DNA of 64,000 bases from a gamma proteobacterium HIMB30. Lineage in GTDB: Bacteria; Pseudomonadota; Gammaproteobacteria; Pseudomonadales; Litorivicinaceae. Shown in pieces: positions 6,484-10,119 of the stretch. The stretch covers positions 62,001 to 126,000 of the forward strand of contig AGIG01000007.1 of assembly GCA_000227525.2 (NCBI GenBank), in the 5' to 3' direction. The number at the start of each line of letters is the position of its first letter. Position 1 is the first letter of the stretch. Both the position numbers and the translations under genes were made by a program. The notes beneath the pieces were generated by a model. That model was not told the DNA's origin. It made no database searches and worked only from the letters and a program-made list of their open reading frames with translations.

Positions 6484-7035
6484 TCAGGTTTTCGCCAAAC
6501 ATAAAAAACCCGTGATTAAAAAGAACCCGCTTGGTACGACAATGAACGGGTAATTGAGATCGATGTTTGAGCCTGATGCGACAAGCGCGATTTCCATATC
6601 AGGTTTAGCCAGATTCGAGTAAAACGCATTATCAGAGCGAGAAAAAATTCCATAAGCCCACGAGGGTAAATATTGAAACTGGGGCTTCTGGAAATTCTTG
6701 ACAAGTACGTTGGCAACGATCGTGATGATCAGAAAACTCGTAATAAAAGCGAACGCACAATAATTCGCAAAGCTTTCAGAATAGGAGATTTTACCCTGAA
6801 GTCTTCTCGCGATCGTCAAATCGTCGGACTCGATAACGTGCATTGCTTTTAACCGACTCTTGATGAGAGCACGCAGTAGATACAGGCCCGGAATGGCACC
6901 CGCCAAAGAAAAACACAAATAGGAGTTTGCGTTCTGATAGACGATCTCGTGGGAAATAATACCAACGAGCAACCCGAGGAGCGCAGAGGTGCCAATTGGT
7001 TTTTCAGCCGTCTCATCATTCTGAATATCAGCCAT
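6484..7035 (-). CDS. Four-helix membrane protein of unknown function
   Basis: This 183-residue protein has hydrophobic segments near residues 17-33, 40-56, 92-112 and 163-181. A charged cytoplasmic-type loop follows the second segment, and a longer polar loop rich in aromatic residues lies between the third and fourth. I do not recognise the family. Neighbours are also uncharacterised and point in the same direction, but gaps of about 150-300 bp argue against one tight operon. The ATG at 7035 is the natural start of the reading frame. Confidence 0.6.
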   Translation of the reverse strand: MADIQNDETAEKPIGTSALLGLLVGIISHEIVYQNANSYLCFSLAGAIPGLYLLRALIKSRLKAMHVIESDDLTIARRLQGKISYSESFANYCAFAFITSFLIITIVANVLVKNFQKPQFQYLPSWAYGIFSRSDNAFYSNLAKPDMEIALVASGSNIDLNYPFIVVPSGFFLITGFLCLAKT

Positions 7036-7185
7036 TTCGGCCTCGTCCCTGCCCGGCTCTGAACCTACAAGGTTTCAGAAACAGAGACAACGCAGGCTTG
7101 CCGGGTGATCAATATACCGCGCGTCCGTGACGTTTGATTTCAATCGGTCAACCTGAACAACAATGGCCTTAAGCCACTACTGTGC

Positions 7186-7341
7186 TTAGAATCGGATACC
7201 CAACAAAAATCGGGCGATCAGGCCCTTCCGACCAACCTCGTGACTTGATAGCGATTTCTTCCATCGCTTCGCTTTGATTTCTTGGTTCGCGAGACGTTCA
7301 TACGAACGAACAACCGCTCGACCGACACCAACTGGGATCAT
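7186..7341 (-). CDS. Small basic protein (51 residues), unknown function
   Basis: I start this at the ATG at 7341 because it is preceded by a near-perfect Shine-Dalgarno (GGAGGTG, spacing about 6). The product is strongly basic (many Arg and Lys) and ends in hydrophobic RFLLGIRF. It has no signal peptide or clear membrane helix and no family I know. It diverges from the XRE regulator gene across a repeat-rich intergenic region, so it is a candidate target of that regulator. Confidence 0.5.
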   Translation of the reverse strand: MIPVGVGRAVVRSYERLANQEIKAKRWKKSLSSHEVGRKGLIARFLLGIRF

Positions 7342-7692
7342 GATTAACACCTCCAACTTGTTATTCTCTTCGCATAATACACGCACAAAATGCATAATGC
7401 AAATAGTGCGCTCAAAAAATTACATTATAATTCAAAGAGATTCTTAATTAATACGCATTATTTGCGATCAAAAGAAATGAGGTGCCCTCTCTATAATCGG
7501 CATCAAGTTTCCGTTACGAGGCTCAATCGACCATCATTTTCGATTCAAAAAACTGATGGTTTAAAGCGCCTTCGGACAATATAGACGTCAATTAATGCGC
7601 ATTTTGTGCGCTTAATTGTCACGGAAATTTCACAAAATCACCGGGCCAACTGTTGATAATGTTGTCGCATCTCAGAAGGTTGAGCCGATCAC
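7342..7692. promoter_or_regulatory. Divergent control region with four CGCA-N5-TGCG operator-like sites
   Basis: This 351-bp AT-rich region separates the 51-residue protein gene from the XRE regulator gene. Sites fitting CGCA-N5-TGCG occur at 7454-7466 and 7598-7610 (exact), and at 7382-7394 and 7398-7410 (one mismatch each). Spacers are AT-rich. The 7598-7610 site sits inside a larger imperfect palindrome at 7589-7618 (12-bp arms with one bulged base). Repetition of one dyad at four places next to a helix-turn-helix gene suggests operators; that link is inference. Confidence 0.55.
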
Positions 7693-7920
7693 ATGAAACC
7701 CAGCGAATTCAAGGCCTGGCGCAAAGACAATCAATTGACTCAAGAGCAGGCAGCTAAAAAGCTCGGCCTGAAAAAACGGATGATTCAATATTACGAGAAA
7801 GGGAAACGAGACGGCAAAGATTTTAAAATTCCCAAAACGACAGAGTTGGCGTGCTACGCTCTTTCGGTGGGGATCGAACACTATTTTGGCCCACAGTCGT
7901 TGAACAGTGATGAGCAATAA
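7693..7920 (+). CDS. XRE/Cro-type helix-turn-helix regulator
   Basis: This is a 75-residue single-domain DNA-binding protein. The helix-turn-helix covers about residues 8-35 (LTQEQAAKKLGLKKRMIQYYE), the usual order of lambda-Cro-like domains. The C-terminus is a short acidic tail with no sensor domain. AGAAGG lies about 12 bases before the ATG. The length and lack of an effector domain fit an autoregulator or an antitoxin-like factor, but no toxin gene sits beside it. Confidence 0.75.
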   Translation: MKPSEFKAWRKDNQLTQEQAAKKLGLKKRMIQYYEKGKRDGKDFKIPKTTELACYALSVGIEHYFGPQSLNSDEQ

Positions 7921-7932
7921 CCCGCCGACTAC

Positions 7933-9642
7933 TTAAAGTCTCACAATATTCACCAATTGCTTTGGCTTCACACCCAACCACTGTCGCACTAACGTCCCGA
8001 TCTCTCGTTGCAATGCACTTCGTAAGCCATCATCCGATTGTAAGGTCCTCGAATTCTGCTCTGATAAGATTTCTTCGATCGCATATCTCAGGTCGCCATT
8101 GAGCGTCTCTGGATCAATATCTCCTGATGGCACACCAACAAACTGAACCTGTGGTTCGGTTGCCAATCGCGCCTTCTTATCAAGCACAACGGTCACAGTC
8201 ATCAGTCCACCATCGGCCAACGCACGACGCTCGGAAAGCGCTCGATCGTTCAAAGGAATCAGACTCGATCCAGATAATCCAAGCCGTCCTGTCTGTACGC
8301 GTGCAATGCAATTCACGCCGGTCGGATCCAACTGAAGTACATCACCGTTAACGACGCGAGCTGATCCCAATCCCATCTCATCAGCAAGTTGCGAATGAGA
8401 TGCCATATGTCGCTCCTCACCATGCACTGGAATCACGACCTTTGGTCGCAATGCGCGATACATCCAACGCAGTTCATCTCGACATGGATGACCTGATACG
8501 TGAATCGGAGCATCTTGCTCAGTGATGACCCTCACCTTTTTCTGCGAGAGAAGGTCATAGAGTCGATACAGTTTTTTCTCGTTTCCCGGAATCACCTTTG
8601 AAGAGAACACGACGGTATCATCGGGCTCAAGTAGCAAATCTTGATGCTCGCCTTTAGCCAACCTCGCCATCGCCGCTCTTGGCTCACCTTGCGAGCCTGT
8701 CGCTAAAATCAGTTGCTCTGACTTCGGTAGATAATCCAGATCTTCGGTGGGCACCAAGTCAGGAAAGTTTTTGAGGTAGCCTGTGGCCTTGGCTGTTTGC
8801 AAATAGTTGAACAAACTGCGTCCAAGCACCGTAATCCGACGGCCTGTCTCGTGCGCGATATCGCCTAAGCTCGCAAGACGGGCTGTATTCGAAGAAAAAC
8901 AAGTCACAGCAACACGATTTGGCTGTGAAGCGATCACCTCATGCAATGCCTTTCGACACTCAGATTCTGAGCCAGACCACCCCTCAACCGTTGCGTTCGT
9001 TGAATCCCCGACCACAAACTCGATCCCCGACTCACCAAGTGACAGTAGACGACCGTCATCGTAATGCTCGCCCTCGATCGGATGCGGATCAAGCTTCCAA
9101 TCACCCGTGTGGAAGACGGTTCGATCCGCAGCTCGTATGACAAGCGCATTGGGCTCTGGAATCGAATGAGTGAGAGTCACCCACTCTAATTGGAAGCCAC
9201 CTAATTCGAGCAAAGAACCCGGTAGTACTTCGTGTAAGGGAACTTGATCGAGCAGACCTGCCTCACCGAGTTTGCGTCTGGCAACCGACGCGGTAAACGG
9301 TGTGCAGTAAACTGGCGCCTTCAGCTGATTCCATAAATAATGGAGCGCCCCAACGTGGTCCTCATGCGCATGCGTGATCACAATACCAACGAGTTGATCA
9401 CGAACTGACCGAAGCGCAGAAAGATCCGCACAGATCACATCAATACCGGGCGGTGTTGAGTCGTCAGCAAATGTGATTCCGACATCAACGATGAGATATT
9501 GGCCATCACAACAATACACATTGAAATTCATCCCTATCTCGCCAGATCCGCCGAGTGGAATGAAATACAACTGCCCATCAATGAATGGAACCTGAGAAAA
9601 ATTAGCAAACGGCTTCAAAATACTGTACAAATATCCAGTCAA
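7933..9642 (-). CDS. RNase J-family ribonuclease (metallo-beta-lactamase fold)
   Basis: The protein has up to 569 residues. It opens with the family hallmark PLGGSGEIGMN, then the zinc motif HAHEDH (91-96 in the longest form), a beta-CASP region, and a C-terminal tail. RNase J enzymes process and degrade RNA by 5'-to-3' exonuclease and endonuclease action. The start is uncertain: the longest form begins at a TTG at 9642 with no good ribosome site and includes a LexA box in its first codons, so a TTG nearer 9570, just before the conserved motif, is possible. It diverges from the S24 gene. Confidence 0.87.
   Translation of the reverse strand: MTGYLYSILKPFANFSQVPFIDGQLYFIPLGGSGEIGMNFNVYCCDGQYLIVDVGITFADDSTPPGIDVICADLSALRSVRDQLVGIVITHAHEDHVGALHYLWNQLKAPVYCTPFTASVARRKLGEAGLLDQVPLHEVLPGSLLELGGFQLEWVTLTHSIPEPNALVIRAADRTVFHTGDWKLDPHPIEGEHYDDGRLLSLGESGIEFVVGDSTNATVEGWSGSESECRKALHEVIASQPNRVAVTCFSSNTARLASLGDIAHETGRRITVLGRSLFNYLQTAKATGYLKNFPDLVPTEDLDYLPKSEQLILATGSQGEPRAAMARLAKGEHQDLLLEPDDTVVFSSKVIPGNEKKLYRLYDLLSQKKVRVITEQDAPIHVSGHPCRDELRWMYRALRPKVVIPVHGEERHMASHSQLADEMGLGSARVVNGDVLQLDPTGVNCIARVQTGRLGLSGSSLIPLNDRALSERRALADGGLMTVTVVLDKKARLATEPQVQFVGVPSGDIDPETLNGDLRYAIEEILSEQNSRTLQSDDGLRSALQREIGTLVRQWLGVKPKQLVNIVRL
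9621..9640 (+). promoter_or_regulatory. LexA (SOS) box
   Basis: The 20-bp site TACTGTACAAATATCCAGTC matches the E. coli LexA consensus TACTGTATATATATACAGTA at 16 of 20 positions. The core is CTGT-N8-CCAG against the ideal CTGT-N8-ACAG. It ends 20 bp before the ATG of the S24 gene, where a repressor would block a promoter. It falls within the longest possible reading of the RNase J gene on the other strand. Confidence 0.7.
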
Positions 9643-9660
9643 ACATTGAGGGGTTCCGTT

Positions 9661-10119
9661 ATGGTAACGATCTTATTGCCGCAGACCAAACACTCACAAC
9701 CGCTAGCTGCGGCTGATATAGACCATGAATTAGTGGAGACATTTGAACGTATTGCAATTGTTGGTTGGGTGTCATGTGGACAGCCGATCGATATGTTTAC
9801 GCAACAAGAATCAATCGAAGTGCCATCAAAGCTGGTACGCAAAAATACCTATGCTTTGCGCGTTCGAGGCAATTCGATGGTCGATGCGAATATTCTGGAC
9901 GGCGATGTTGTGGTCATCGAACAATCTCAAATCGCAGAAAATGGTGAAAAAGTCGTCGTTCGAATCAACCAAAAAGAAGTGACCTTGAAGACGCTCAGGC
10001 TTGATCAGGACGGCGTTAAATTAATTCCAGCAAACAGTTCAATGAGCCCAATCGTCCTCAATAATGCAGATGTCGAAGTATTAGGCATTGTTCGCGGTGT
10101 GATTCGTGACCGAATTTAA
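9661..10119 (+). CDS. LexA/UmuD-like S24 autopeptidase without DNA-binding domain
   Basis: This is a 152-residue protein starting at the ATG at 9661. It has the self-cleavage dipeptide Cys39-Gly40 (VSCGQPI), nucleophile Ser72 in RGNSMVDANILDGD and general base Lys110 in EVTLKTL. The spacing (Ser to Lys 38 residues) is close to UmuD and LexA (37). The 38 residues before the cleavage site are too few for the LexA winged helix, so it resembles UmuD. No umuC follows. The LexA box directly upstream supports SOS control. The 3' end overlaps cbbY by 4 bp, tail to tail. Confidence 0.8.
   Translation: MVTILLPQTKHSQPLAAADIDHELVETFERIAIVGWVSCGQPIDMFTQQESIEVPSKLVRKNTYALRVRGNSMVDANILDGDVVVIEQSQIAENGEKVVVRINQKEVTLKTLRLDQDGVKLIPANSSMSPIVLNNADVEVLGIVRGVIRDRI

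Follow-up and report, generated by a model that had tools for sequence, protein, structure and literature searches.

Small autoregulators of the phage 434 Cro and lambdoid Cro type have palindromic operators, and the restriction-modification C proteins are known for tandem dyads at their promoter. The 75-aa XRE protein described here (R75) resembles phage 434 Cro (PDB 1zug, 71 aa) in consisting of a small single HTH domain, and the two match in sequence with an E-value of 3e-4. In contrast to 434 Cro, the recognised neighbours of R75 are housekeeping genes, its operator letters differ, and its sites lie 16 bp apart in the promoter of a tiny gene. The C proteins C.AhdI and C.Esp1396I are, like R75, XRE proteins of 75–80 aa, and such proteins appear among its structural hits (1y7y, 3g5g), but no restriction or methyltransferase gene was recognised among the R75 neighbours, and the match to the PADLOC control-protein model has an E-value of 0.045. 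Aca1 and Aca2 (7c0g, 7ezy) share the small HTH fold, 7c0g being bound to a palindrome, with Foldseek TM-scores (query) of 0.63–0.66; they differ in that identity is 25–28% with no Foldseek E-value under 0.001, and no anti-CRISPR gene was recognised near R75. The best structural hit was the HTH part of NE0471 of Nitrosomonas (2auw; 31% identity over 58 columns, TM-score (query) 0.67), whose chain has 155 aa compared to 75 aa in R75. Set beside these systems, the locus would be a unit of ordinary kind, i.e., a small XRE repressor that probably regulates itself, whose operator is unusually well supported and whose target would be an orphan small protein (B51).

The source genome belongs to the genus of the OM252 group (“Ca. 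Halomarinus”), which includes the isolate LSUCC0096 and records named Litoricola (PMC8269220). Neither the literature listings searched nor the passages of PMC8269220 consulted contain an account of R75, its operator or B51, and the main text of that paper uses neither “heme” nor “hemN”.

The R75 and B51 genes and their surroundings

The window, which is the whole stretch of DNA analysed (64 kb), spans bases 62001–126000 of contig 30 in a 2.17-Mb genome. Four dyads stand between B51 (7186–7341, minus strand) and R75 (7693–7920, plus strand). The features of the locus are as follows:

7186–7341, minus strand: B51, gene of a 51-aa basic protein (MIPVGVGR...ARFLLGIRF), recognised by its codon-position pattern; matches so far in one genus only
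7349–7354, minus strand: GGAGGT, ribosome binding site of B51, read from the sequence letters
7374–7402, minus strand: probable core promoter of B51, TTGCAT-N17-TATTAT, whose hexamers flank a dyad (promoter scan and pattern counts)
7382–7394: B51 site 2, between −35 and −10 (core dyad upstream in 15/15 intact B51 genes)
7398–7410: B51 site 1, overlapping −35, 16 bp from site 2 (core dyad upstream in 15/15 intact B51 genes)
7431–7467, minus strand: stretch collinear with the hemN 3' end of relatives, holding the 7454 dyad (statistical support via the sister copy G004b against G001 and G013 only)
7454–7466: third dyad, probably from the hemN coding end (core kept in 5/6 hemN genes, broken in G010)
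7598–7610: R75-side (formerly R75/hemN) site (core dyad, intact versus broken R75 copies)
7693–7920, plus strand: R75, 75-aa XRE (HTH_3) regulator (PF01381, E 8.5e-8; predicted helical HTH, mean pLDDT 86.6)

Both genes had been proposed from the letters of the window, the 51-aa ORF together with its GGAGGT, and both are present as claimed. They look like genuine genes, because the window copies differ from those of the related genome G001 mainly in the third base of codons: 4, 4, and 28 differences at positions 1, 2, and 3 for B51 (28/36 third) and 10, 2, and 36 for R75 (36/48 third; 71 codons). A comparison of G012 with G019, in which hemN was not found, gave dN/dS values of 0.070/0.20 for B51 and 0.052/0.32 for R75, indicating purifying selection. 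By these sequence comparisons, B51 is under purifying selection.

The sequence-only reading had assigned neither product to a recognised family. B51 is without a match in four libraries (Pfam, NCBIfam, PHROGs, and PADLOC), and R75 belongs to HTH_3 with 32.6 bits against PF01381 (gathering cut-off 23). R75 also matches some antitoxin and defence models weakly, through its HTH (e.g., TIGR03070 with 22.8 bits at a cut-off of 71.65). The N-terminus MIPVGVGR is shared by 14 of the 15 aligned B51 members. The five members examined carry a net charge of +7 to +9; B51 has a hydrophobic end, and in three of the five the strongest amphipathic stretch lies at the N-terminus. The predicted fold is one helix (mean pLDDT 75.6, pTM 0.34), a model that was too poor to be used for a structure search. 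B51 is most likely a small effector that would bind the membrane, nucleic acid or a partner protein.

Neighbours of the pair are an RNase J gene (by Pfam), a 183-aa protein gene without family match and a ccmA-like gene (by eye). The RNase J-like protein (7933–9642, minus strand; PF22505, E 3.6e-37) occurs here in a gammaproteobacterium, a group in which RNase J is uncommon. Its gene is overlapped by the start of a Peptidase S24 (LexA/UmuD-like) gene on the opposite strand (9499–10119, plus strand), and the same overlap is present in relatives, e.g., G001, G002, and G009. The 183-aa protein (6484–7035, minus strand) adjoins B51 and has no significant family match; in G004 and G019 its match falls in two pieces. 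In two genomes a similar ORF of 42–45 aa lies near B51 (L064:4605–4742 and L052:6994–7122); it is without a Pfam match and resembles the C-terminal tail of FliF. Rfam yielded nothing up to E 1 within 6900–8000. A link to photosynthesis was rejected, as a reaction-centre gene was found in only one of the 22 genus genomes (G015, locus L200), which is not the source genome.

Tandem dyads in the probable B51 promoter

A motif scan reproduced the positions and matches of the four CGCA-N5-TGCG dyads, those at 7382 and 7398 with one mismatch each and those at 7454 and 7598 exact. Four dyads in 229 bp are unusual; by a hand Poisson estimate from the rate of the window scan, the chance of meeting such a cluster anywhere in 64 kb is ~0.01. 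Over the whole window the motif is not enriched: 47 matches with at most one mismatch were counted where 38.8 ± 6.4 are expected, and 12 shuffles out of 100 gave at least as many. In the whole genome enrichment is not clear, with 49 exact matches against 38 for the pattern read backwards. The dyads are taken as real because they are conserved among relatives that carry both genes, and on this point the sequence-only reading was not contradicted. Its “array of four”, however, has to be taken apart, since two dyads form a tandem in the B51 promoter, the one at 7598 is the R75-side site, and the one at 7454 falls where relatives have the 3' end of hemN, a gene that is missing here.

Tandem core dyads (GCA-N5-TGC) are found upstream of 15/15 intact B51 genes in the genus, with a step of 16 bp (17 bp in G007), the nearer one beginning 52–60 bp before the start codon. 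None of the 40 upstream stretches covered by the scan has the reversed pattern. Among the matches listed, the source genome has a single exact tandem, at B51, and G001 has two, both at B51; away from B51 there is one each in G016 and G002. If one mismatch is allowed, the source genome has 8 tandems compared to 4 for the control.

The promoter scan places a minus-strand promoter of B51 at 7403–7374, in the form TTTGCA-18-TATTAT. This call is not telling alone, because two sites were found in the region where 1.5 are expected by chance. A combined promoter-with-dyad pattern, TTG-N6-GCA-N5-TGC-N3-TA-N3-T, matched 14 times across 22 genomes, with 11 of the matches at B51 and 3 elsewhere, whereas the reversed control gave 2; four intact B51 promoters fail this stricter pattern (G002b, G007, G009b, and G012). 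As judged from its letters, the B51 promoter is probably of the sigma-70 type. For repressors of this kind, a site between the two promoter boxes is an established argument for repression.

The R75-side site, the hemN gene and the origin of the third dyad

The dyad at 7598 is embedded in the 30-bp palindrome (7589–7618) described in the sequence-only reading, although the palindrome is imperfect, with one extra T on the left. Its arms, compared by eye, are CAATTAA/TTAATTG and GCGCA/TGCGC, and in the five hemN-bearing relatives shown the inner dyad is retained and the outer left arm is not. The core dyad is present at the same place in 7/7 intact R75 genes and in 0/3 broken copies; a fourth R75 remnant (G015) stands outside this count, and no dyad is listed within 2 kb of it. 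The three R75 copies at another site (G004, G012, and G019) have no dyad close by, and only the shared B51 tandem lies upstream of them, at 183–199 bp.

In G001, G002, G003, G009, and G013 a gene of 452–475 aa lies between R75 and B51 and is divergent from R75; a sixth relative, G010, has it in two parts at contig ends. The proteins of G001 (409.7 bits) and G003 (376.7 bits), which were the ones scanned, pass the cut-off of 324.95 of the hemN equivalog model TIGR00538, and the other four are 64–94% identical to that of G001. The hemN gene encodes the oxygen-independent coproporphyrinogen oxidase. It is absent from the source genome, whose sole match is 27% identical to part of hemN. The earlier description of a small autoregulated two-gene unit stands insofar as a small regulator is paired with a small gene via conserved sites, but in six relatives the unit comprises three genes with hemN. 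In three relatives, promoter scans of hemN and R75 turned up no sigma-70 promoter.

Local alignment of the R75/hemN side of the window gave scores of 82, 85, 44, 52, and 26 with G001, G013, G009, G002, and G003, compared to shuffle maxima (n = 100) of 41, 34, 41, 38, and 33, respectively; only G003 fails. The dyad at 7598 is the one that relatives have between R75 and hemN. The letters of the 7454 dyad equal codons near the end of hemN in G001, G013, G002, G009, and G003 (VANTAHSSAI in G001), and the step from the equivalent dyad to the tandem is 56 bp in G001, G013, G002, and G009 and 64 bp in G003. Since the best local alignment of the window itself was on the other side, this homology rests on collinearity and on the sister copy G004b, whose alignment to the hemN end beats the shuffles against G001 (48 to 37) and G013 (45 to 40), though not against G009, G002, and G003; another sister copy, G019b, has no best alignment at the hemN 3' end. 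The 7454 dyad is probably a leftover of the lost hemN end. It may nonetheless serve as an operator, since the window and G004b keep the dyad perfect.

Six genomes have hemN in the interval from R75 to B51 and this one lacks it, which could also mean that R75 and its sites had served hemN, and that the window copy is decaying after the loss of the gene. The R75 copies broken at the same place in G004, G018, and G019 would fit such a decay. However, neither ORF is disrupted here and both show strong codon constraint, albeit over a span that includes the time before the loss, and the pair is intact elsewhere in G004, G012, and G019, where no hemN was found (G004 and G019 being 60 and 72% complete). 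We therefore regard a relic as improbable.

A second R75 paralogue was observed upstream of dsbB (L071:4540–4773 and L073:5295–5558; dsbB is PF02600 in L071). It shares the HTH, and the same core dyad lies upstream of it in only 6 of 10 cases, 41–51 bp before the start. It might thus be that the dyads bind another regulator, such as this paralogue, and that R75 is a bystander, all the more as G007, the eleventh genome with an intact B51, has a distant B51 with dyads and R75 solely of the dsbB type. Against this, the R75-side dyad is absent wherever R75 is broken (3/3), and intact B51 accompanies intact R75 in 10/11 genomes, which makes a bystander role of R75 very improbable. Both R75 paralogues may bind the dyads.

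We consider it likely that R75 and B51 form a unit in which R75 represses B51 via the promoter dyads and regulates itself via the R75-side site, with control of hemN in relatives. R75, a small Cro-like protein and presumably a dimer, would recognise CGCA-N5-TGCG. Of the two sites in the B51 promoter, one overlaps the −35 box and the other lies in the spacer between −35 and −10, so that R75 bound there would be expected to obstruct RNA polymerase and B51 would stay off until a signal or a fall in R75 relieves the repression. The R75-side site probably provides autoregulation and, in the relatives, control of the divergent hemN. B51, strongly basic and probably helical, would then act under the inducing condition. 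In the source genome hemN would have been lost while the R75-B51 pair remained.

Distribution of the pair and R75 relatives in another class

B51 matches were obtained in 11 and R75 matches in 14 of 115 genomes (own genome included), all from one genus. Among 369 genomes of the class, B51 was found in the source genome only, as was R75 at E 1e-12. Intact R75 of the same type and intact B51 occur in the same 10 of the 22 genus genomes, a count in which several genomes are incomplete and phylogeny is ignored. In G004, G012, and G019 the pair sits elsewhere, on the ubiA/recG side (names by eye), and G004 and G019 hold broken copies at the old place.

The sequence-only reading had likened the locus to a toxin-antitoxin or defence-type module. 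In the former case B51 would be a small membrane-active toxin and R75 its repressor or antitoxin, which would suit the tight co-occurrence of the intact genes and the second location at which three genomes carry the pair, two of them with broken copies left at the old place. The basic character of B51, its hydrophobic end and its amphipathic start point the same way, as do the weak matches of R75 to a Y4mF-type antitoxin (E 6.3e-5, far below cut-off) and to HipB structures (E 0.005). One B51 copy adjoins R75 (hemN aside) in ten genomes. On the other hand, the B51 paralogues of G001, G002, G009, and G013 have no R75 in the 6–10 kb fetched (for two of them the contig ends at a distance of 1.4 and 2.3 kb), B51 matches no toxin family of the four libraries, and in seven genomes R75 has the RNase J gene close by. 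Also, B51 was not found in phages, nor in viral contigs, where distant relatives could be missed because the scan used the single peptide MIPVGVGR, and R75 was not found in plasmids. Two phage records hold an R75-like protein with 43% identity, and eleven viral-contig loci have weak R75 relatives. As to defence models beyond a generic HTH, B51 has none and R75 only the weak matches over its HTH. Overall, the toxin-antitoxin and defence readings are unsupported, and we judge a toxin-antitoxin pair to be unlikely.

Evidence for the regulator-operator pairing came from outside the class. Of 299 genomes searched across the phylum, and apart from the source genome, 14 contain an R75 match at E 1e-7. 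For three of them the E-value is under 1e-27, and none of these three is a member of the class; searches round one of the strong relatives turned up more. By our reading, the other class is probably the Alphaproteobacteria. An R75 relative of this class carries CGCATATAATGCG. An exact CGCA-N5-TGCG lies within 300 bp upstream of 16 of the 17 strong outside-class relatives, compared to a mean of 0.28 and a maximum of 2/17 in dinucleotide shuffles (300 rounds) and to 0 to 3 of 17 for nine other patterns. In a wider draw, which comprised 30 of 32 matches (two were without a locus, and L165 had been left out of the earlier set as its regulator was not located), the exact dyad was upstream in 21/30 loci, whereas ten control patterns reached 0 or 1 of 30. 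Because L201, L202, L204, and L206 repeat genomes of the 17-locus set, the count for new genomes is 17/26. Two or three exact dyads are present in 13 of the 21 dyad-bearing loci, and in twelve they are 26–34 bp apart. Nine of the 30 relatives are without an exact dyad, three of them keeping the core and 6 lacking the core, too. Divergent homologues with a different recognition region are without the dyad (L230 and a second copy in G490, of which 160 bp were seen), and a scan in which minus-strand loci were not turned gave no exact dyad for the weak relatives (E 1e-11 to 1e-7). The other-class dyads would thus tie the regulator to CGCA-N5-TGCG better than the window alone, and the pairing of R75 with this operator is, as a prediction of binding, well supported.

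An ORF family of ~80 aa occurs in 7 of the 30 other-class loci, upstream and on the other strand in the five whose position was seen (L206, L211, L214, L215, and L220); in L211, L214, and L215 the dyads lie between the genes. Two of these proteins are without a Pfam or NCBIfam match and by eye are unlike B51.

What these data offer is a regulator-operator code, open to testing, for a small XRE family that is present in at least two classes, and an orphan small-protein family that can be named for a cosmopolitan marine group. They also suggest that a regulator and its target may persist as a pair after an enzyme gene that once lay between them, hemN, has been lost. More tentatively, and with less likelihood than the repression of B51 itself, R75 could found a widespread, undescribed family of tiny autoregulators with the fixed operator CGCA-N5-TGCG, each with an unrelated tiny partner protein. 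If this were true, the partners would be B51 in OM252 and the ~80-aa opposite-strand protein in several genomes of the other class, and the R75 family would act as a switch of general use for very small effectors, which in OM252 would be tied to oxygen-independent haem synthesis.
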